Source of the DNA: a virus
DNA: 30,886 nt
IMG/VR virus record: IMGVR_UViG_3300024520_000335
Span: 1-30,886 of that record
Strand: one strand, 5' to 3'
Under the pieces are notes generated by a model that saw only the letters and a list, made by a program, of their open reading frames with translations, did no database searches and was not told the origin of the DNA. Of this stretch, positions 4,466 to 30,886 are shown piece after piece. Made by a program: the position numbers and the translations under genes. How positions within the stretch are numbered: the stretch's first letter is position 1; each line of letters opens with the position of its first letter.

Positions 4466-6563
4466 GCGCAAAGAACGCAAACAAACAGGCAAGCCTGGAA
4501 AGATGGCTGATGCTGATAAGGTGGCATTGTGGAAGAGCAAGATCGCAACTGCTCTTAACTTACGTGACACTGCAAATGAATCAGAGTGGCGTCAATTCAA
4601 TGACTTGTATAACTGTCAGAATCCAATCCTGACCAATGACAACATTGATGACTTTCACCTCAATGACTTCCATCTGTCAGTGCGTCGTACCAAGGCTCGC
4701 ATTAACTACAGGAATCCTCGCTGGACTGTGCTTACTGTTGGTGGCAATGCGTCTACCGATCAAGAGATTGATAATGCAGATCTCGTTCGCTCTTGGCTTC
4801 AGTGGTTTGTTTATTCAAACGATATTCGTGAAGACGTACTTGATCCGACCACGCTAGACGCACTTATTGTTGGTACTGGCATTGTTCAGGTTGGATTCAA
4901 CAGCATTCCTGAGAAGCAGGAAAAGTTCACTGACGAGAACAAGGCGGCTATTGAATTAGAGGAAATGGCTAAGGCTATCAGTGAAGGCGTTGACCCTGAT
5001 GAGGCAGCGACTCGAGCCGAAGAAGCATCTAAGGAGATGCCTGACATCCCACCCAGTGATGGTATGGATGATCACAAAGAGAATCAGCCCTACGTTCAAC
5101 ACATTGACGCATTCAACTTTGTCATGTCCCCTGGTTATCCAGATCTCAAGTCAGCATGGAATAACGGTGGATGGGTAGCGAAAAGAATCGTTGCTCCTAT
5201 CGATGTGATTAAAGCCGAACCTCGCTACAAGAAGTCGGCTCGAGATGAGCTTGAAGCAACCAGAGACCTTACGTCCCCTGGCTTTGAGTTCATTAAAGAC
5301 GAAGGCATCTACGATGAAGACGGCAACATGATGTTCGACTTCGTTGCAGTGTGGGAGATATGGACTGCACCAGACAAGAAGAACAACAAGCCTGGACGAG
5401 TGATGGTCGTTGCTGAAGAGAGCCAGAAGTTTCTTTACAACGAAGAGAACCCATTCGACCTCGATAGCTTTCCATTCGTTGATTTCCGTTTCATCAAGCA
5501 GAAGAACCAATTCTGGGGCATCCCCTTTGGTCGCTCTAGCATGGATACGAACGAAGCTAAGGACCAGATGGTTTCCTACTGGGTTGACTTTGCTCGGTCC
5601 CAGAAGACTGTGCTGCTTGCTCAAGAGAACGTATGGCAGGACAACCATGTCAACAACTTGGCTGAGTTGTCTAATAACAGTGTGCTTCGTGTACCTGATG
5701 TAACTGAGCAGACCGCTCGCTTTATGTCACCCAACCCGATGTCGCCTGAGATCCCCAATGTGTTGGGACTCTTGGGTCAGCATTTTCAGCAGCACATGAG
5801 CGTTGGTCCTCAACAGAATGCTGGATATGGGCCTAGTGGATCTTCGGCTACTGAAGCACAGTTGGTTAACCAGAATGCCCAGGTCAACACAGATGACTTC
5901 ATTAGTGTGATCACAGATGGTTGGGCTCGCATCGGCAGAATGCTGGTCAAGCTCTTGAAAGAAATGGGTGATGAGTCCCAAATCATCAAGGTATCTAAGG
6001 TTGATGGTGCTGTGTGGCAAGGTGAGTTCACCATTGATGAGATCAATGAAGAGTTCGATATTCGTATTGCAGCAGGATCGACTCAGCCGATTGATGAAGC
6101 AGTACGCCAGAAGCAGTTGATCGACTTGACCGGCATGCTCTTTAATCTGGCCCCAGAGCAGATTGAGAAAGAGCCGATCCTTACCGATCTCCTTGAGAAC
6201 TATCAGGATCGTCTACCAAACACGAAGAACTACATCTCTCAGAATCCGCTTAATAGCCAAGAAATTGAGACTTTGATGATGATCGAGACGGGTGAGGTTG
6301 TGCCTATTCGTCCTACCGATCCTCATATGAAGCATGTGCGTCAGATCGAGAATGTGGTCACCGGATACCAGATGGCAGTCCAGAACCAGATGCTCAGTGA
6401 GGAAGAGGCTACTCAGCGCATAGCACCCCTCCAGCAGCACGCTCAGATGCATATGCAAGCAATCGAGCAACGTAACGCCGGCGCCCAAGCACAGCAGCAG
6501 ACAAGCAACGGTGGGGCTATGGATCCAGGCGGTATGCAGCAAGAAGTGCAGGGAGGTGCTTAA
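4449..6563 (+). CDS. Portal protein
   Basis: This 704-residue protein lies directly after terL and begins with GTG at 4449 (preceded by GAGG), encoding MAFGFKRKERK. The length and features fit podovirus-type portals: an N-terminal helical region, RRTKARINYRNPRW (~75-90), a central wing with FRFIKQKNQFWGIPFGRSSMDTNEAKDQ, the stem/crown region with GYGPSGSSATEAQ, and a Gln/Met-rich C-terminal barrel-like tail (from ~650). The portal forms a dodecameric ring at one capsid vertex, docks terminase during packaging and later holds the connector. The stop overlaps the next start (TAATG). No break or frameshift is seen. Confidence 0.92.
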   Translation: MAFGFKRKERKQTGKPGKMADADKVALWKSKIATALNLRDTANESEWRQFNDLYNCQNPILTNDNIDDFHLNDFHLSVRRTKARINYRNPRWTVLTVGGNASTDQEIDNADLVRSWLQWFVYSNDIREDVLDPTTLDALIVGTGIVQVGFNSIPEKQEKFTDENKAAIELEEMAKAISEGVDPDEAATRAEEASKEMPDIPPSDGMDDHKENQPYVQHIDAFNFVMSPGYPDLKSAWNNGGWVAKRIVAPIDVIKAEPRYKKSARDELEATRDLTSPGFEFIKDEGIYDEDGNMMFDFVAVWEIWTAPDKKNNKPGRVMVVAEESQKFLYNEENPFDLDSFPFVDFRFIKQKNQFWGIPFGRSSMDTNEAKDQMVSYWVDFARSQKTVLLAQENVWQDNHVNNLAELSNNSVLRVPDVTEQTARFMSPNPMSPEIPNVLGLLGQHFQQHMSVGPQQNAGYGPSGSSATEAQLVNQNAQVNTDDFISVITDGWARIGRMLVKLLKEMGDESQIIKVSKVDGAVWQGEFTIDEINEEFDIRIAAGSTQPIDEAVRQKQLIDLTGMLFNLAPEQIEKEPILTDLLENYQDRLPNTKNYISQNPLNSQEIETLMMIETGEVVPIRPTDPHMKHVRQIENVVTGYQMAVQNQMLSEEEATQRIAPLQQHAQMHMQAIEQRNAGAQAQQQTSNGGAMDPGGMQQEVQGGA

Positions 6564-15126: not shown

Positions 15127-16022
15127 TGGGTAACACGGCAATTGGAAATGCATTCATCAAGATAAGGGAAGGCAATGAGTCGACCCCTCCTGAGGACACA
15201 GAGCAGGAAGAAGCACGCTTTGAGGTAGAGAGTGGGTTTGGGCCAGGACAAATGACTGGTCCTGAACTGGCACACCGGCAGCGTCGATCAGAAGAGACTG
15301 ACCGTATTGTTGACACTAGGCGTAACTTGGTGGACTCCTTCTTCTTTGAAGGTCTTCAGATGAGTTACGTTAACGCGCAGACTATTAGTGTTACCTCTGG
15401 CGCTTTAGGACTCGACAAAGAAATCTTTGACACTAGTGCTTTTGAGATCTCAGTCGATCCTGAATTCGTAGATGCCACTGCCAAGTGGTTATACCTGCAT
15501 GTTGCTATTGCACGTGACAAGCCACAAAAGCCTTTCTTCGCTCGCACAAGGGTGGTCAATACCTTCCCCCCTGGTTACGGGAAGAGTCATTACATTGGTG
15601 TGATTAACTACACAGCATCAGATGTGATACACCCATTTGTCCAATGTGCTTCATCTGAGGAGCGTCATTATTCATTTGAGGGTATCTTGGTGGATAGCAC
15701 CGTCGTTGGTGTCATGACAGAGATCACTTTAGATATCCCTGATGGTGTATGTAGATTCGATTGGTTCTTCAGGGCAACTGGTTCTGGTCCTTCATCAACC
15801 ATTGCTTATTACGCGGCACCTTCTGTATTGAATGCACCTACCCCTACGTTGTCAGCAGGTAACCAGATATTTTCAAGTGGTCCATCCACCGGCTTTCGAG
15901 GTGCTTTCCATATGAGTGTGAGCAGGAAGAAGATCTATCATGCTGCAACTGCAACTGGGGCTCAGACGATAATCAACCTTGAGCTATACGTCCGTGGCTT
16001 TACTGACCATGTGAATGATTAA
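15126..16022 (+). CDS. Putative tail protein / fibre-base protein
   Basis: This 298-residue protein is coupled to the nozzle gene by TAATG. A polar, charged N-terminus (residues 1-65, many Glu, Arg and Gln) leads into beta-rich sequence: YVNAQTISVTSGALGLDKEIFD, WLYLHVAIARDKPQKPFF, YIGVINYTASDVIHPF and FAHMSVSRKK-like strands near the end. The segment 'w.YlYv......' followed by 'yigvi.....' resembles proteins that link fibres to podovirus tails. I cannot assign a family. The last codons overlap the acetyltransferase start by 8 bases. Confidence 0.7.
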   Translation: MGNTAIGNAFIKIREGNESTPPEDTEQEEARFEVESGFGPGQMTGPELAHRQRRSEETDRIVDTRRNLVDSFFFEGLQMSYVNAQTISVTSGALGLDKEIFDTSAFEISVDPEFVDATAKWLYLHVAIARDKPQKPFFARTRVVNTFPPGYGKSHYIGVINYTASDVIHPFVQCASSEERHYSFEGILVDSTVVGVMTEITLDIPDGVCRFDWFFRATGSGPSSTIAYYAAPSVLNAPTPTLSAGNQIFSSGPSTGFRGAFHMSVSRKKIYHAATATGAQTIINLELYVRGFTDHVND

Positions 16023-16491
16023 GATGATTGGTAGCAAAGACATAACCCATCTGGCGACCAGCGACATTGACGAGTTGATGGCAAAGGTCATCAAGCTTAA
16101 CCATTGGGAAGCGGTCAAATTTGACTCTCGCATCTTGATGGATGAGTACCAGATTGCCCAGATCCGTGAGCATATCATGGGTCTTTTGAGGGATCCTGAG
16201 TTTGGTGCTGTATTGGTCTTTAAGGTTGACGAGAAGATTTGTGGGTTTATCTCAGGAATTATAGAAGGTTCCCGGGCAAAGATTTTAGATGTTTGGGTAG
16301 ACGAAGAACACAGAGGGTCTACTGCTGCGACGAGGCTCTTTTATTCGTTGCATGATTACTTCGGTAAATGTGGTGTGACCAAGATCATTTGTGAGACATC
16401 AGTCCAGAATGATCAGGTACACGACATGTTGGTACGCTTCGGTTACTCCCCTTTTGCGGTAACCTTTATGTTGAATGTTGAGGACGAATAA
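16015..16491 (+). CDS. GNAT-family N-acetyltransferase
   Basis: The 158-residue product shows the GNAT fold in order. An N-terminal helix is followed by the strands FGAVLVFKVDEKICGFISGII (~60-81) and AKILDVWVDEEHRGSTAATRLF (~85-107), containing the motif A region. Here the acetyl-CoA loop reads EEHRGSTAATRL rather than the common R-G-x-G-x-G/A. A helix (SLHDYFGKCG), the strand KIICETSV and NDQVHDMLVRFGYSPFAV (motif B) follow. It would transfer acetyl from acetyl-CoA to an amine on a small molecule or protein. The start could be ATG 16015 or 16024; 16015 overlaps the previous gene. It sits between tail and internal-protein genes, so it may act on virion or host proteins. Substrate unknown. Confidence 0.83.
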   Translation: MIKMIGSKDITHLATSDIDELMAKVIKLNHWEAVKFDSRILMDEYQIAQIREHIMGLLRDPEFGAVLVFKVDEKICGFISGIIEGSRAKILDVWVDEEHRGSTAATRLFYSLHDYFGKCGVTKIICETSVQNDQVHDMLVRFGYSPFAVTFMLNVEDE

Positions 16492-24971: not shown

Positions 24972-25107
24972 CGGTCTTTTTCTCTTCCTCATCTTCCAGG
25001 CTTTCCGTATAGCAACCTTCGCAAATCATCTCACCATCTTTTTCTTCACTGTTGTCGAAGTCGCTGTCGATGTATCGGTCGCACCAATGACAATAGAATA
25101 CGCTCAT
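24964..25107 (-). CDS. Zinc-ribbon microprotein (47 residues)
   Basis: The frame runs from ATG 25107 (after GGAGGAAGAATC) to TAG 24964-24966. The 47 residues contain FYCHWCDRYI and GEMICEGCYTESL, two Cys-x2-Cys pairs 22 residues apart, and a very acidic tail (LEDEEEKKTDE). The start overlaps the upstream stop (ATGA) and the end overlaps the next start by 8 bases. Clean coupling at both sides and the zinc signature make it a likely gene despite its size. Confidence 0.72.
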   Translation of the reverse strand: MSVFYCHWCDRYIDSDFDNSEEKDGEMICEGCYTESLEDEEEKKTDE

Positions 25108-25388
25108 GATTCTTCCTCCACACATACCTCGCAAGGCTCGCCGTAAGTGTTGACCTTAGAGTCTAAGCACATAGGACAGGCACGCTTACTATAAACAACA
25201 TGAGCCCCATGTGACATCATGCGAGGCTTGCCAAACCCAGTAATGATCTTGTTCTCACAACCTGGACACGTCCACTCATCTCCAGACATAAACATTGAAG
25301 AGTTCTCTTCCGGCTTTCCAAGTTCACAATCCACTTCATTGTGGGTGCACTTGTACCAACGCTCACAGGGTATGCAGTATGTGCTCAT
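25104..25388 (-). CDS. Multi-cysteine zinc-binding protein (94 residues)
   Basis: The 94-residue protein has three Cys-rich blocks: YCIPCERWYKC...VDCELG (residues ~4-22), WTCPGCENKIITGFG (~39-53) and RACPMCLDSKV...EPCEVCVEEES (~69-94). This suggests two zinc sites in rubredoxin- or ribbon-like knuckles. It starts and ends with ATGA overlaps. I do not recognise a named family. Among the small genes of this operon it has the most Cys pairs. Confidence 0.78.
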   Translation of the reverse strand: MSTYCIPCERWYKCTHNEVDCELGKPEENSSMFMSGDEWTCPGCENKIITGFGKPRMMSHGAHVVYSKRACPMCLDSKVNTYGEPCEVCVEEES

Positions 25389-25696
25389 GCTTTATCCTCT
25401 CCGCGCAAGGCAACAGAGCAGCATTTGGCGATGGTCTTGCCTACACCCTCAACATACTCAACGGCATCAGTTCCACATTTCCACCAACCACTAGCTATGG
25501 TCACGTCTACATATTCGCCGATTTCATCCAGCACCCCCTCCAGCCTCGCAACCCGCTCTTGCAGGGAGTCGCGCTCGGCCTTGTACAATGCAACCATGCG
25601 GCCTAGTTCGTCACGCTCGGCAATGATCACGCACCTCTCGCAGTTGTCCACGTTCTCGCCTGACGGGAATCCGCATATGCAATCGTTTCTGCTCAT
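25385..25696 (-). CDS. Cys-motif coiled-coil protein (103 residues)
   Basis: The N-terminus carries DCICGFPSGENVDNCERC (residues ~5-22), two Cys pairs that could hold zinc. It is followed by a coiled coil (RDELGRMVALYKAERDSLQERVARLEGVLDEIGEY, ~29-63) and a short C-terminal part with WWKCGTDAVE. Codon use is visibly more GC-rich than in the genes further downstream, matching its upstream neighbour. ATGA overlaps at both ends. Function unknown. Confidence 0.74.
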   Translation of the reverse strand: MSRNDCICGFPSGENVDNCERCVIIAERDELGRMVALYKAERDSLQERVARLEGVLDEIGEYVDVTIASGWWKCGTDAVEYVEGVGKTIAKCCSVALRGEDKA

Positions 25697-26400
25697 GCGC
25701 TTTTCTCCTCGGGATCGGGTGCCCCTTCGTCGGTCGGCTGTAGGGCTCTTGCAGCTTTACCAATAACGCCCCATGCAACTGACCTGTAGTGATCTGCTTC
25801 ATTACCTGCCGCTGGTGGCATGCTAGTGCCGGTGCCTGCAATATCATCCAGCGCAGCCTTGTACCTTTCCCCCTCCAGCAGCAGGGCCTTGATGTGGGAC
25901 CAGTGCTTAACGAGTTTCCATTCATCATCCTCATCCATTTCTGCGATGTGCCACCTGGCGATTACAGGGTCAACTTCCTCCACAATCTCGCGTGCCGTTG
26001 GCGTGGTCATCGCTCCCCCCTCTGCTGCTGCGCGAATTGCTTCGCGTGCATTTACAAGCGCCTCATCGTAAGCACCCTCTAGCCCCGTCGCATATCGGTA
26101 TGCCTTCATCAGTCCTTCCAGCGCCTCCACCAGCGCGGTCAGGCGGGATTGCAGGGCTGCGTTTTCAGCTTCCAAAGCATTAATGGCAGCAATGTCAGGG
26201 CCAACGCGGTCGGCTAATATCTGCTGGTAACTCTCCACCTCCGCCTCTGCTGCCTTCAGGCGGGTGAGTGTGTCGATTATCTGCTCACATTCGCTTTGGT
26301 CTATACGTGCCCATTCACCACCAGCATCTACAAAATGTTGCAGCACACCATCCCAGTGATCAATCAACCCATCCACATCCACCGGCTGCTCGGTGGTCAT
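25693..26400 (-). CDS. Coiled-coil hypothetical protein, GC-rich (235 residues)
   Basis: I chose ATG 26400 because it overlaps the stop of the membrane microprotein gene (ATGA); an in-frame ATG 15 bases upstream is less well placed. The protein has polar N-terminal helices, a long coiled coil (INALEAENAALQSRLTALVEALEGL, ~72-96) and, after an internal MTTPTAREIVEEV (~131), a helical C-terminal half with HWSHIKALLLEGERYKAALDDIAG. This layout resembles the Ea22-like small-phage-gene products seen in many temperate phages, and the C-terminal half may be a separate module. Codons are GC-rich compared with the virion genes, suggesting acquisition from another phage. Function unknown. Confidence 0.74.
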   Translation of the reverse strand: MTTEQPVDVDGLIDHWDGVLQHFVDAGGEWARIDQSECEQIIDTLTRLKAAEAEVESYQQILADRVGPDIAAINALEAENAALQSRLTALVEALEGLMKAYRYATGLEGAYDEALVNAREAIRAAAEGGAMTTPTAREIVEEVDPVIARWHIAEMDEDDEWKLVKHWSHIKALLLEGERYKAALDDIAGTGTSMPPAAGNEADHYRSVAWGVIGKAARALQPTDEGAPDPEEKSA

Positions 26401-26573
26401 GAGAGAACACCGCATAAAATCAAAACAATAAATACAAATCCGATTATACCCAGCAGGCCGCCGGTCAAATAAATCTTAGCGAGTCTGTCAGATAAGCACC
26501 CATAGCAGAGCCCATCGGGATGATCCTTTGCAAATGTTGATATTCGGTGGCATCGAACACATAACTTGCTCAT
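26397..26573 (-). CDS. Zinc-ribbon membrane microprotein (58 residues)
   Basis: ATG at 26573, three bases after the upstream stop, opens a 58-residue frame to a TGA that overlaps the next start (ATGA). Residues ~4-26 hold KLCVRCHRIST and GLCYGCLSDRL, a two-pair Cys-x2-Cys ribbon. Residues ~37-57 (TGGLLGIIGFVFIVLILCGV) form a single transmembrane segment. A zinc ribbon joined to a membrane anchor is distinctive; the N-terminal ribbon probably faces the cytoplasm. Function unknown. Confidence 0.72.
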   Translation of the reverse strand: MSKLCVRCHRISTFAKDHPDGLCYGCLSDRLAKIYLTGGLLGIIGFVFIVLILCGVLS

Positions 26574-26576
26574 TCG

Positions 26577-26852
26577 CTACCACTCCGTTGTTGATATAAG
26601 TACAGGGAATTTGCCACCGTCCATCTCGTGCTGTAGGGCTGATTCGCGTAGCGTTTGCTTACCCTTCGATTGGTCGTATACGTCTATCATGTGCTCATAA
26701 CTTGGCTCGCGCTCAACTGGAGATTCGTAGTAATTTTCTACGTCACCGCACACTACATTTGTGTGCCATTCAATGGCCTCGTCCCACGTCTTTGCTGCAA
26801 CAGTGTCAATGTCATCAACAAGCCAAAACTTAATCTCATCTGCAATGCTCAT
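26577..26852 (-). CDS. Hypothetical protein without zinc motif (91 residues)
   Basis: I chose ATG 26852 because it overlaps the upstream stop (ATGA); an open frame back to 26882 lies within the previous gene. The acidic product has SIADEIKFWLVDDIDTVAAKTWDEAIEWHTNVVCGDVENYYESP, a helix rich in aromatic and acidic residues, and a polar C-terminal half. It has a single Cys. I do not recognise it. It is one of the few members of this small-gene chain lacking a Cys-x2-Cys pair. Confidence 0.72.
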   Translation of the reverse strand: MSIADEIKFWLVDDIDTVAAKTWDEAIEWHTNVVCGDVENYYESPVEREPSYEHMIDVYDQSKGKQTLRESALQHEMDGGKFPVLISTTEW

Positions 26853-27073
26853 TCGCTTTGCTCCTCGGGCTGGGTGGTCCATGAATACGAGAGGTGTACG
26901 TTTAATTCAAAATTTTTACCACAACTTCCGCACTCCTCTTTGTGATCACCCTCTCTATAGAAGTCGCCTTCCGAATCTGCTGGATCATGGAACGCCTTAC
27001 AGTGTGGACAAAACACGCCCTCATCGCTCCAGACTTCGCCATCCTCATCTTCAAGGTATCGGTTGTCACTCAT
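26849..27073 (-). CDS. Zinc-ribbon protein (74 residues)
   Basis: The product carries VFCPHCKAFHD and EECGSCGKNFE, Cys-x2-Cys pairs at residues 22/25 and 48/51, the classic zinc-ribbon layout, inside an acidic N-terminal sequence. The final part (LNVHLSYSWTTQPEEQSE) is beta-like then polar. Zinc ribbons of this type often bind nucleic acids or partner proteins. The ATG overlaps the upstream TGA (ATGA) and its own TGA overlaps the next ATG. Confidence 0.78.
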   Translation of the reverse strand: MSDNRYLEDEDGEVWSDEGVFCPHCKAFHDPADSEGDFYREGDHKEECGSCGKNFELNVHLSYSWTTQPEEQSE

Positions 27074-27240
27074 CCCGTCGCCCCCTCACCCTCGGGCTGC
27101 TCACAATCACAACACGTAGGGCACTCACTACATACAGCGCACATCTTAGGCAGCTTGTTCCCGTACTTAAACCTGTGGTACATAGCGCCATGGCAAGACG
27201 GGCAGCCTTCAACTTCTGAGGCGCGGGGGTTAGGAGTCAT
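27070..27240 (-). CDS. Very Cys-rich microprotein (56 residues)
   Basis: ATG 27240 to TGA 27070-27072 encodes 56 residues containing GCPSCHGAMYHR and MCAVCSECPTCCDCEQPE: eight Cys in 34 residues with an adjacent His. That is enough for two zinc or other metal sites. It overlaps the upstream gene by 11 bases and the downstream one by ATGA, so coupled translation is likely. It has GC-rich codons at its ends. No family recognised. Confidence 0.7.
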   Translation of the reverse strand: MTPNPRASEVEGCPSCHGAMYHRFKYGNKLPKMCAVCSECPTCCDCEQPEGEGATG

Positions 27241-27421
27241 GGGTGGGCTCCAGCTTGTTAACTTCTACCTCTTCTATTTCATACCAATTGTTTTCATTAT
27301 TTGATCTACCCACGTGATCAACAGAGTTTTCAGCATTCTCTTTGCTATCAAATATGCCAGTGAAGTACCCACCGTACTGGTCATACGCATTATAGAATTC
27401 AAGAACTACCCACATATTCAT
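27230..27421 (-). CDS. Small hypothetical protein (63 residues)
   Basis: The product starts MWVVLEFYNAYDQYGGYFTGIFDSKENAENSVDH-like and ends in WYEIEEVEVNKLE. The pattern, an N-terminal strand, then 'giFdSkE.Ae.sv' and a closing 'yeI.ev.l', is typical of small phage regulatory or accessory proteins with one alpha-beta unit. There is no Cys. The start is ATG 27421, overlapping the stop of an 18-codon frame; a second ATG two codons later is possible. Function unknown. Confidence 0.7.
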   Translation of the reverse strand: MNMWVVLEFYNAYDQYGGYFTGIFDSKENAENSVDHVGRSNNENNWYEIEEVEVNKLEPTHDS

Positions 27422-27474
27422 TCTCCAGTCCCCTTCAATCTCCGCTCCACCAACGCCTGTAGATCGTCACTCAT
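27418..27474 (-). CDS. 18-residue linker ORF
   Basis: A tiny frame (MSDDLQALVERRLKGTGE) starts inside the end of the upstream gene at 27474, and its TGA overlaps the next ATG. It carries the GGAG that serves the following gene. It may be a translational bridge that keeps ribosomes moving through the operon, or a remnant of a longer gene. Without it, 45 bases would be untranslated. Confidence 0.35.
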   Translation of the reverse strand: MSDDLQALVERRLKGTGE

Positions 27475-27703
27475 CGTCCAGGCCCTCCGGATATAGTTCA
27501 TCGGCACACTTTGGGCAATACGTTGCACCTACAATGTCATAAATCATCCAACGATCAGGCAACACATCTACCGGCTTCTGATCCTTATACCTTCCAAAGC
27601 CCCAGCCCTTGCCGTTGAAGCTAATAAACTCACGTCGTAAAAAAGCTGTGCCATCTGCAACTGCATCACAACCGCCGCAGCTAAATACTACTTTGACTCC
27701 CAT
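27467..27703 (-). CDS. Zinc-motif protein (78 residues)
   Basis: The ATG at 27703 follows TGATG coupling; a GTG one codon upstream is less likely. The protein has FSCGGCDAVADGTA near the N-terminus and TYCPKCADELYPEG near the C-terminus, two Cys-x2-Cys pairs separated by about 50 residues. Between them is a beta-rich stretch with FNGKGWGFGRYKDQKPVDVLPDRWMIYDIVG. The pairs probably come together around one zinc. Function unknown. Confidence 0.77.
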   Translation of the reverse strand: MGVKVVFSCGGCDAVADGTAFLRREFISFNGKGWGFGRYKDQKPVDVLPDRWMIYDIVGATYCPKCADELYPEGLDDE

Positions 27704-27918
27704 CACCCCAACTCCTCCAACCTCTTAGCCTCTATGCAACGGTCGCACCAGCCACCCCTCTCATCTGCACGACACACATAAGCCTTCTTGCACCTCCCGC
27801 ACACATCTGCAACGTGCTGCCGCTCAGGATGGAACAACGCTTTAGATGCACCCTCACGTTGATATTCCTTTGCACGATCCTGGTTGTCGGATCCTGTGTC
27901 GATGTATTCATGCGCCAT
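27703..27918 (-). CDS. Zinc-ribbon protein (71 residues)
   Basis: A polar N-terminus (MAHEYIDTGSDNQDRAKEYQ) leads to VCGRCKKAYVC and GGWCDRCIEAKRLEEL, a four-Cys ribbon (residues ~40-61) with an extra Cys. GGAGGGTGAG lies just upstream of the ATG. The gene begins 11 bases inside the end of the DpdA-like gene, placing it at the head of the zinc-ribbon chain and tying its translation to the base-exchange enzyme. Confidence 0.77.
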   Translation of the reverse strand: MAHEYIDTGSDNQDRAKEYQREGASKALFHPERQHVADVCGRCKKAYVCRADERGGWCDRCIEAKRLEELG

Positions 27919-28573
27919 CTAACTCACCCTCCTTAAATAACATGGACTGTCTCTCAGGCTTTTCAAACTCGTCTAAGATATGCCAAGCTTTATTCCTCAC
28001 GAATGATGCTGAGTCACATGAGTCAACGCCAAGCTCTTGACATCGCCTTAGATACTCAATCTTCCCACATTGACCAACGTGACATTTCTTGCCATTCTTA
28101 TGGGCCAACTCAACCCATGCTTCAACATTGCGCCATTTCCACTCAACAGATCCACCAATGAATAACGTGGTGATACGATCATCCTTAAGCATCAGGCTTA
28201 TCTTTCCCCCCCTGCTCAGTGGAGTCATGCCATCCTGGACTACGAAGGCAAGGTTAGTGCCATGCAATCTATCTGCCCATGCCATTGAGAAATCAAATGA
28301 CTTCATACCGCCAGTAACAATGTCTGGTAGCACAATGAACTGCAGATCTAAATTCAGATTGTAGATGGTGTCCAGTGCCTTGAGGAAAGCATACTCATTG
28401 AACCCTCTCCCCTTTTGGAATGCAGGGAAAGCACCATTGTCTAGGGACACAGGTATACCTTCCCATTGCTTACGTGGCAACCACCTGGAATCAGATGAGC
28501 ACAGTATACCCATGCCAAACTTATGGATGTACTTAAGGTCTTCACCCATTGCGTTGGACGTGTAAATCCTCAT
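27908..28573 (-). CDS. dpdA: DpdA / TGT-like 7-deazaguanine transglycosylase
   Basis: The 221-residue protein keeps the core of the tRNA-guanine transglycosylase fold that phages use to exchange guanine in DNA for a 7-deazaguanine. The aligned features are LDNGAF (residues 44-49, the TGT 'DSGGF' acid), VLPDIVTGG (81-89), FVVQDGM (110-116), LFIGGSVEWK (137-146, the substrate-pocket Gly-Gly) and LGVDSCDSASFVRNK (181-195), which matches the nucleophile region 'GvD.fDcv.PtR'. D184 or D187 is the likely nucleophile. The usual C-terminal zinc site of tRNA TGTs is absent and the protein is short, as in phage DpdA types. QueE is encoded 13 bases upstream, giving the precursor. The combination predicts modified phage DNA that resists host restriction enzymes. 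The substrate, DNA rather than tRNA, is inferred. Confidence 0.8.
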   Translation of the reverse strand: MRIYTSNAMGEDLKYIHKFGMGILCSSDSRWLPRKQWEGIPVSLDNGAFPAFQKGRGFNEYAFLKALDTIYNLNLDLQFIVLPDIVTGGMKSFDFSMAWADRLHGTNLAFVVQDGMTPLSRGGKISLMLKDDRITTLFIGGSVEWKWRNVEAWVELAHKNGKKCHVGQCGKIEYLRRCQELGVDSCDSASFVRNKAWHILDEFEKPERQSMLFKEGELDGA

Positions 28574-28586
28574 GAGATAACAGTGA

Positions 28587-29240
28587 TCATCTTACGTCAG
28601 CAAACTTATGCATCTGCATACACAGCTTCCAGTCTCGACCATTACCACTCTGTAACTTCTTAACCATTGCTACAGTATCCTCTGCATTGCACTTGCCATT
28701 CTTCCATTCAGGCATCAGGAAAACATTGTTAGCATAGACTGTCCTTTCCCACTCCCTGATCTCTTCTATGTGTTGACCTGTGTACACCAACTTAAGTTCA
28801 CTAGCTCTGGTGATCTTGCACTCCTTGGGAGATGTTTTAGGTGAGACAACTAGATACCCACCCTTGATCATGAAGTATTCAACCTGGAGAGCTTTAGCCC
28901 CACTGGTCTGGATCATGACCCTATTATCTTTGAGTTCTTTAATCAGGGAGTTGAGTGCTTTAGGTTGATCTAGTGGTTCTCCACCAGTGATGCAGATCCA
29001 ACCAACATTACCCACCTGCTCCTTGGCACGTAAAGCCACTGCATCTGCAAACCCTCTGTACTTGTAGGAGTAGTCAGTGTCGCAGTGCATACGTACAGGG
29101 CATTGGCCTACTGAACAACCTGAGAACCTTATGAAGTACATGGGCGTACCTGTGAGTTGACCCTCACCTTGGATGGAATAGAACTCTTCAGCCAACTTGA
29201 TAGCGTCGATCACTTCCCTAGAAGTCATTATTGTATCCAT
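28587..29240 (-). CDS. queE: QueE-like 7-carboxy-7-deazaguanine synthase (radical SAM)
   Basis: QueE uses a [4Fe-4S] cluster and SAM to rearrange carboxytetrahydropterin into 7-carboxy-7-deazaguanine, the ring source for preQ0. Residues ~18-55 read EEFYSIQGEGQLTGTPMYFIRFSGCSVGQC...HCDTDYS, where GEG, the 'GtP..FiR..GC' strand and CDTDYS are hallmarks of QueE. ICITGGEP is the SAM-binding GGEP motif, VSPKTSP follows, and the C-terminus LCMQMHKFADVR matches the family's 'LQtHKy'. The cluster Cys spacing is C-x4-C-x5-C instead of the usual C-x3-C-x2-C (see findings). The start is ATG 29240, overlapping the helicase end by 23 bases; ATG 29228 is possible. Length (217) is normal for QueE. No QueD, QueC or FolE gene lies in this window. 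Confidence 0.88.
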   Translation of the reverse strand: MDTIMTSREVIDAIKLAEEFYSIQGEGQLTGTPMYFIRFSGCSVGQCPVRMHCDTDYSYKYRGFADAVALRAKEQVGNVGWICITGGEPLDQPKALNSLIKELKDNRVMIQTSGAKALQVEYFMIKGGYLVVSPKTSPKECKITRASELKLVYTGQHIEEIREWERTVYANNVFLMPEWKNGKCNAEDTVAMVKKLQSGNGRDWKLCMQMHKFADVR

Positions 29241-30886
29241 ATTGACGCTCTACAGGCCCCTCAGCCTGCCTAAGATAGTTAATCGCTAATGCCTCTGGTG
29301 ATTCTTTGTACTGATAGCTTGGTTGATCCCAGAATAAACCTACCTTCCCTTCCCAGTCACCTTCACGCTGCTTGAAACATCCAATGACAGCATCAGGCTC
29401 ATCACGTAGGGATAGCTTGTCTTCACCTGAATCTATGGCGTCTTCTTTTATCTTGTTCCTCCAGACGCTAAACACGTTGTCAGCAAGATCTGTGATAGCG
29501 CCAGTCCCTTTGATGTCCAACTTTCCAGGCATCAATGATTCATCTTGACCCTTGCGAGAGTGAGCAAGTAAGTGGATGTGAATTGGTAATTGATTCTTAA
29601 GGTCACACAGCTTGTCTACAAAAGACTTCTGCCCGTTGTAGTCATCTTCAGCAAATCCACACTTGACCAGGGAGTCGATTACAAAGTGAGTGATGTTGTA
29701 TCTGTAGTGCCCATATTCCATCACCTCTAAAAGCCTCTCTGATTTAGCTGATCCTACGAGATTGAATATAAACAGTGAGTCGTAGTACCACTTGTTGATC
29801 TCTTCCAAGTCTTCAGGGGATGGCTGACCTTTCCCAACAATCTGCCTGCACATACGACGTAGTGTTTTTTGTGGCCTCATCTCCATGCTAGCAATACAGA
29901 CTTTTGATTTCTGCATAATGGAGCTAATTGCAACATGGCCCATGACTTGAGATTTGCCATGACCATTGATCCCAGTCCACATAGATAGCTCATGGGGTCG
30001 TATATAGATTTTCCCTTGGGTCTTTTTCCACGGCATATCCAGGCCAATGGCTAATTCATCTGATGGGTAGAATTCTTCATAGACCTTGTCCTTGAAGTCA
30101 GACGCTCTTTTAAGCTCCTCTGGGTCCATGGTCTTGGCTGAGTGGAGGCACTCATACATGTCACCTGCTGATTTCAATTCAAGAAGACACTCATTGGCGT
30201 CTTTATGTGGGAGTTCAACTACCCGACACCTGTGCTTACCTAAACGCTCACAGATTGACTCAATGGACTTTTGGCCTTCCTCGTCCATGTCAAAACTGAC
30301 ATAAATCTCATCGAATCTTTGGAGGTGGTCATATTCCTCTTCAATCCACTGATGATTTCCTGCACCAAAGGGAACTGATAAAGAATCAAACCCATATTGC
30401 TTCCAGGTCATGGCATCAATCTCACCCTCACAGAGGATTATTGATCTGGCTGAATCATCAACTGCCTGCCATCCAAACAGAGTGGGTCTACATTCAGGTG
30501 CTACTTGGATACCCTTCTTGCCTTTATCGCTTCGCTCAAGATGTAGATATTTCCTGAACAGGCATTTATCGTCCTTGTGATAATTGAAGACAATCTCTTG
30601 CCCTCTGGTCATAACATTAAATCTCTCAAGGGTAGCTAGAGTTATGAGCCTTTTGTTGATTAGGTAATCAAGTGCCTGCTTGTGATCTCGCACATGCTCT
30701 AGACATGCCGCTACGGGGGTCGCAGGCGTCTTGTAAGAGCGTTTCTCTCCAGCAAGAGGGTTAGTTGGGATGTTGAGGTATTCGCAAGCCTCAGTCATGG
30801 CCTGTGAGATAGTGACATTCTTTGTCACCTGCCATAAATCTAGTAGGTCACCCGATTCATTGTCTATTGCGAAGTCTGACCACCTT
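29218..30886 (-). CDS. Primase-helicase, 5' end beyond the window (partial)
   Basis: The frame stays open past the GTG at 30828 to the window edge, reading WSDFAIDNESGDLLDLWQ upstream of it. This looks like the end of a primase zinc-binding region ('GD.idlw'), so the gene is partial. Counting from 30828, a TOPRIM domain has LCEGEIDAM (~132-140) and SFDMDEEGQ (~178-186). A RecA-like helicase has Walker A GINGHGKS (~286-293), a Walker B-like THFVIDSLVKCG and HIHLLAHSRKG (motif H3-like), then LADNVFSVWRNK. This is the T7 gp4 / DnaG-DnaB architecture: it primes lagging-strand synthesis and unwinds the fork. It heads the visible part of the minus-strand operon and overlaps queE by 23 bases. Confidence 0.92.
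   Translation of the reverse strand, partial: RWSDFAIDNESGDLLDLWQVTKNVTISQAMTEACEYLNIPTNPLAGEKRSYKTPATPVAACLEHVRDHKQALDYLINKRLITLATLERFNVMTRGQEIVFNYHKDDKCLFRKYLHLERSDKGKKGIQVAPECRPTLFGWQAVDDSARSIILCEGEIDAMTWKQYGFDSLSVPFGAGNHQWIEEEYDHLQRFDEIYVSFDMDEEGQKSIESICERLGKHRCRVVELPHKDANECLLELKSAGDMYECLHSAKTMDPEELKRASDFKDKVYEEFYPSDELAIGLDMPWKKTQGKIYIRPHELSMWTGINGHGKSQVMGHVAISSIMQKSKVCIASMEMRPQKTLRRMCRQIVGKGQPSPEDLEEINKWYYDSLFIFNLVGSAKSERLLEVMEYGHYRYNITHFVIDSLVKCGFAEDDYNGQKSFVDKLCDLKNQLPIHIHLLAHSRKGQDESLMPGKLDIKGTGAITDLADNVFSVWRNKIKEDAIDSGEDKLSLRDEPDAVIGCFKQREGDWEGKVGLFWDQPSYQYKESPEALAINYLRQAEGPVERQYGYNNDF

Follow-up and report, generated by a model that had tools for sequence, protein, structure and literature searches.

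Gene arrangement at the locus

The stretch of DNA analysed here, referred to as the window, is the whole of IMG/VR record IMGVR_UViG_3300024520_000335 (30,886 bases) and is probably a genome fragment. The contig carries the tailed-phage genes for a terminase, a portal, a major head protein, a tail fibre and an internal-virion-like protein, and an acetyltransferase-like gene is located amid the tail and structural genes (16015-16491 (+), PHROG 1249, E 6.6e-16). Close relatives of the phage were not found by a terminase search. A search with the primase gave seven distant loci, 0/7 with pathway genes.

Two adjacent reading frames on the minus strand form the core of the locus, at the coordinates given in the original prediction. 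The first, 28587..29240 (-), encodes a predicted QueE-like radical SAM enzyme of 217 aa with the cysteine arrangement C42-x4-C47-x5-C53 (GCSVGQCPVRMHCDT). The second, 27908..28573 (-), encodes a protein of 221 aa, which by fold, residue alignments and its match to PHROG 15826 is a predicted short DpdA-like guanine transglycosylase. For this short DpdA-like family (PHROG 15826) we use the name sDpdA. A spacer of 13 bp (28574..28586 (-)) separates the stop of the queE-like gene from the start of sDpdA in the sequence, an arrangement that reads as a compact operon. Upstream, a primase-helicase gene (29218..30828 (-), Toprim/DnaB domains, PHROG 239, E 3.1e-110) overlaps the queE-like gene with its 3' end by 23 bp, and the end of the record cuts into or near this primase gene. 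Downstream, the ORF list contains a small CxxC-rich frame of 71 aa (27703..27918 (-)), whose start overlaps the end of sDpdA by 11 bp and which gave no above-chance profile match in Pfam or PHROG. It is part of a series of small ORFs 3' of sDpdA (25104-27918 (-)), several with CxxC zinc-ribbon-like pairs, for which no clear family was obtained in profile scans.

A search of the remainder of the 30.9-kb record for queC, queD (PTPS), folE and Pfam-TGT gave no match. The expectation of a minimal gene set that would depend on host intermediates thus holds for this record; as the record is a fragment, queC, queD or folE could still be present elsewhere in the phage genome.

Fold and active site of the short DpdA-like protein

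The sequence of sDpdA is far from those of all characterised DpdA proteins. Besides PHROG 15826, a family of unknown function (E 3.2e-24), profile search gave a Pfam TGT score of 12.2 bits (E 0.092), under the gathering cut-off of 26.3. PDB sequence searches with the single sequence or a profile returned nothing meaningful, and single-sequence hhalign against E. coli TGT aligned a chance segment only, a deeper profile being needed. The relation to TGT is therefore barely visible to sequence search alone, and its support comes from fold and profile-profile tests.

An AlphaFold2 model built from 19 homologues (pLDDT 90.0, pTM 0.87) was compared with the PDB by Foldseek, and 50/50 of the matches listed were TGT (best E 1.2e-5). 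In a viral Foldseek library, several of the top matches were named queuine or queuosine tRNA-ribosyltransferase. On this model basis, sDpdA is predicted with high confidence to form a TGT-type barrel. TIM barrels are common, and in a VIA comparison pyruvate kinase, another TIM barrel, scored level with TGT; the barrel alone is thus not diagnostic and the active site was examined as well. A profile of 88 sDpdA family members was aligned with five TGTs and evaluated against 100 column shuffles. The global score of 17.4 exceeded the shuffle mean of 2.8 and maximum of 14.3, and the local score of 35.7 exceeded a shuffle maximum of 25.2. In the profile alignment D45, D84, G140-141, D187 and R193 of sDpdA pair with D89, D143, G213-214, D264 and R270 of E. 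coli TGT, while Q113 lies one position off Q187.

Phage proteins were compared as well. Local scores for phage 9g DpdA, Salmonella 7-11 DpdA, a Campylobacter CP220 relative and Sonali gp87 lie 6.4-13.1 s.d. over shuffles (30 sequence shuffles each). The local alignment with 9g DpdA covers sDpdA residues 39-195 and pairs D45, D84, G140-141, H165, S185 and D187 with D72, D114, G162-163, H196, S213 and D215; no Gln is placed at the position of Q113 in the 9g and 7-11 alignments. Invariant in 19 sDpdA sequences are D45, P83-D84, Q113, G140-G141, W145-K146, H165, S185, D187 and R193. The segments LDNGAF, FIGGS and GVDSCDS, named in the original prediction as intact catalytic regions, are present and conserved across the family. 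Thus the assignment to a TGT/DpdA-type enzyme was borne out by a TGT barrel with both catalytic aspartates aligned, and neither of the contrary outcomes set beforehand, a structure prediction lacking this barrel or a nucleophile (D187) lost on alignment, was found.

With 9g DpdA1 and Salmonella 7-11 DpdA, sDpdA shares the TGT-type barrel, the aligned aspartates with the GG pocket and the linkage to preQ0-pathway genes. With 9g DpdA it also shares the SxD(S/G) nucleophile motif and the histidine corresponding to H196, a residue that is reported to be kept in DpdA and lost from DpdA2 (PMC6884629). By profile the nearest characterised relative is the DpdA of Salmonella phage 7-11, a singleton (E ~7e-7, with few proteins scanned). 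In contrast to 9g DpdA with its 317 aa, sDpdA proteins comprise only ~200-220 aa, and no significant pairwise match exists between the two. The bacterial DpdA equivalog of the Dpd islands (NCBIfam NF041059) scores 10.4 vs 200 bits (E 0.2), which places sDpdA outside that group. Barrel, catalytic aspartates and base pocket, histidine and preQ0-gene linkage together support its placement in the phage DpdA (DNA-guanine transglycosylase) superfamily. Bacterial TGT likewise has the barrel, the catalytic aspartates and the GG loop, but is much longer, contains a zinc region and has Tyr at E. coli position 242 in place of the DpdA-type His. Since sDpdA stops 34 residues past the nucleophile D187, the C-terminal zinc region of TGT is missing; with this site absent and the Pfam score under the gathering threshold, the protein falls outside the tRNA-TGTs.

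The QueE-like protein and its cysteine motif

For the neighbouring gene the identification as QueE stands by profile and fold, while the canonical cysteine motif and the Glu of the substrate motif were not found. Window QueE matches PHROG 2076 (E 4.6e-22) and, in phmmer, the QueE of 4njg (E 3.3e-7); the top six Foldseek chains are all QueE (best E 1.5e-10), so that both fold and sequence profile agree with QueE. The NCBIfam model queE_Cx14CxxC gave E 5.5e-18, well under its equivalog cut-off, and the best equivalog score was 65.6 vs 240 bits, with all QueE cut-offs missed. Like the QueE proteins of Burkholderia (4njg), E. coli (6nhl) and phage 9g, it retains QGEG, R38, CDT, GGEP, SPK and QxHK in addition to the fold; unlike canonical QueE, it has Gln111 in place of the Glu of the (E)T(N/S)G substrate motif.

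The three cysteines are present in the arrangement GC-SVGQ-C-PVRMH-C-DT, that is CX4CX5C with a displaced middle cysteine, and match neither radical SAM motif, CX3CX2C (as in 9g QueE) or CX14CX2C. For this reason the protein is called QueE-like. The non-canonical spacing makes its activity less certain, and residues 48-52, the cysteine loop, are below pLDDT 50 in the model. The same CX4CX5C spacing occurs in the QueE of L055, L133 and L136 (GCSYKACHIRALCDE is the L055 type). L055 and its near relatives are 37% identical to window QueE (blastp) and also carry Gln for Glu in (E/Q)TSG. Between L055 and L133 a dN/dS of 0.06 was obtained for queE, which indicates that this variant is under selection.

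A single-sequence IMG/VR scan revealed no close relatives of window QueE, and a DNA-pattern scan, run over IMG/VR together with 84,980 species genomes, brought up no other QueE carrying the window-type motif; its matches at 3 viral and 3 genomic places were rejected as chance (0/6 in the QueE frame). The pattern required GC(S/T), (V/I)R and CDT. The CDE relatives L055, L133 and L136 escape it, so that the scan does not show the motif to be absent elsewhere. Another variation was seen in L134 (4992-5687) and L135 (667-1362), where QueE-like proteins carry an insert of ~31 residues between the first and third cluster cysteines; both phages also encode QueD and FolE, and L134 encodes QueC.

Relatives of sDpdA and their pathway partners

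Homologues were collected with sDpdA alone as query and comprise 38 and 80 IMG/VR loci (the second set being 80 kept of 321 profile relatives) together with 20 GenBank phages. Including the window, the analysed loci fall into 34 clusters at 70% identity. Some GenBank members are already annotated "DpdA-like"; the SEA-PHAGES "DpdA-like tRNA-guanine transglycosylase" proteins (Sonali gp81, Phegasus gp54) belong to the sDpdA family and ReqiPine5 gp03 is homologous. The tblastn matches to these actinophage genes span 52-74% of the sDpdA query. Isolated phages that carry family members include Erythrobacter phages R6L and ZS04, Arthrobacter phage Sonali, mycobacteriophage Phegasus and Rhodococcus phage ReqiPine5.

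In 23/34 clusters queC, queD or queE is found within 3 kb of sDpdA, mostly overlapping or adjacent. When the window is set aside, as well as L133, a locus reached via QueE, a pathway gene remains in 21/32 clusters and Vut_1 in 2 more. For scale, window QueE has a match at E 1e-3 in only 185 of the 50,697 phage records of GenBank. The partner sets within 3 kb are QueD (9 clusters), QueC with QueD (5), QueC (3), QueD with QueE (3), QueE (2, the window and L133), QueC with QueE (1), Vut_1 (2) and none (9); FolE was found on none (0) of the viral contigs searched. As many metagenomic contigs are short, these counts are lower bounds. At least 15 changes of partner set are required on a maximum-likelihood tree, on which the window groups with 99/99 support with L003 and L047 (QueD partner) and L001 and L050 (no partner). 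Whereas in the actinophage branch the gene adjoins Vut_1 or has a full preQ0 operon nearby, in the window branch its neighbour is queE, queD or no pathway gene at all. Thus, unlike the folE-queD-queE-(gat)queC arrangement of the 9g and 7-11 systems, partial and interchangeable partner sets are the rule in sDpdA loci, which fits reliance on host intermediates.

The comparison also bears on the position beside the replicative primase-helicase, from which modification at or near the replication fork had been proposed. This adjacency is confined to the window and recurs in no other cluster: by blastp, a homologue of the primase is found within 3 kb of the gene in the window alone, and the only matches in the other clusters are two loci, 4.5 kb away. 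As the adjacency is not conserved and transglycosylation needs no fork, we reject the coupling.

Several further genes recur near sDpdA. A Vut_1 (YhhQ-family) gene abuts or overlaps it in ReqiPine5 (L044 3264-4414) and Phegasus (L042 4388-5549). The preQ0 transporter belongs to the YhhQ family, and the position of Vut_1 suggests uptake of a precursor. A nucleoside 2-deoxyribosyltransferase-like gene accompanies sDpdA and QueD in two clusters (L034 3691-5176, L100 ~5118-6522; the PF05014 assignment was tested in L034). PAPS-reductase-family genes occur in L036 (8571-9566), L040 (7181-8380), L055 (3977-4789), L133 (3555-4376), L114 (1456-2250) and L044 (4508-5425). Long sDpdA reading frames were considered as fusions with pathway enzymes and rejected, no pathway domain being found; the long frame of L051 matched a home-made longer-DpdA profile that may contain L051 itself. 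Arthrobacter phage Sonali encodes sDpdA plus a longer DpdA-like protein (L041 5875-6492, 8862-9752), both genes adjoining a full queC-queD-queE-folE operon. With two such proteins in one phage, sDpdA may serve a function of its own in Sonali.

Proposed function and alternatives

Considering the fold, the residue equivalences, the family-wide genomic link to the pathway and the partial gene sets, the two genes probably constitute a minimal module for 7-deazaguanine modification of DNA, in which a host-fed QueE supplies an sDpdA that exchanges DNA guanine. Host FolE and QueD would provide 6-carboxytetrahydropterin (CPH4), from which the phage QueE-like enzyme would raise the flux to 7-carboxy-7-deazaguanine (CDG), supplementing the host pathway; host QueC would then convert CDG into preQ0. 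By the TGT mechanism, sDpdA would swap selected guanines of the phage DNA, rather than of tRNA or a nucleotide, for preQ0 or a nearby intermediate, D187 presumably attacking the sugar, D45 serving as acid/base and D84 with G140-141 holding the base. The inserted base may be preQ0, CDG or a derivative. Reliance on the host has precedent in two phages with dpdA as their sole pathway gene, in which dADG was found at levels of 0.02% and 0.13% of G (PMC6884629, PMC8306585). Host nucleases may cut the modified phage DNA less readily. Such protection from restriction is uncertain, since dpdA-only phages carry very little modified base and, in phage MED16, no appreciable protection could be ascribed to it (PMC6884629, PMC8306585).

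QueE and sDpdA are the sole pathway genes seen in the window, as they are within 3 kb in L133, which could also mean that QueC is dispensable. QueE would then make CDG and sDpdA insert it directly to give 2'-deoxy-7-carboxy-7-deazaguanine (dCDG), with Lys146 pairing with the carboxylate. W145-K146 is invariant in 19 sDpdA, and counting residues from the aligned GG (G141 = TGT G230) puts K146 at E235 in the numbering of Zymomonas TGT, where Glu235 is near the 7-substituent. dCDG was reportedly found in phage DNA by Cui in 2023. However, K146 is equally invariant where the phage encodes QueC or only QueD and does not track the QueE-only sets, and QueC is common in hosts; this route is therefore unlikely. 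In a broader version, a QueE with a rebuilt CX4CX5C iron-sulfur site makes CDG and the zinc-less sDpdA places CDG or a new derivative directly in DNA, the family as a whole acting as a plug-in module. We consider this rather improbable; if true, the sDpdA family of phages and large plasmids would borrow any 7-deazaguanine that the cell offers.

The TGT fold and the catalytic residues of sDpdA are also what would be expected if it acted on tRNA and, with QueE, boosted queuosine-type tRNA modification during infection. The zinc-binding region of TGT contributes to tRNA binding, however, and sDpdA, ending 34 residues after the nucleophile, is without it and possesses the DpdA-type His. Phages with pathway genes and no dpdA were proposed to boost Q, but E. 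coli tgt was not replaced by phage 9g DpdA (PMC6884629). Action on tRNA is thus very unlikely. That QueE mainly disturbs the host and lies beside sDpdA by chance, as could be imagined from E. coli QueE, which blocks cell division when abundant and is reported to regulate division (PMC11142719, PMC4974570), is scarcely credible given the recurrent linkage of sDpdA to QueE, QueC or QueD in many clusters, the QGEG, GGEP and QxHK active-site motifs kept in window QueE and the low dN/dS for the same cysteine-motif type in L055 and L133.

Implications and occurrence on plasmids

The general idea of 7-deazaguanine modification in phage DNA is already known. What the present analysis adds is evidence, at the level of the family, that a minimal DpdA occurs with single partners that are exchanged for one another, together with the odd QueE motif. 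Should sDpdA act on DNA, it would rank among the smallest guanine transglycosylases and offer a compact tool for DNA base exchange. With a spread over unrelated phages and 170 plasmid records, 7-deazaguanine DNA would be far commoner than full-pathway phages suggest, and phages with one or two of the genes would need precursors from the host. How far the cluster-binding loop of a radical SAM enzyme can change with its chemistry kept could be tested on the CX4CX5C QueE.

The plasmid homologues were found in PLSDB, where 146 of the 170 records are from Pseudomonas and most plasmids are large; others are Burkholderia-group and haloarchaeal plasmids. The proteins are annotated "hypothetical protein", for example in L138 (NZ_CP083367, 5719-6582). 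In pQBR57 (L139), stop codons interrupt the sDpdA copy.
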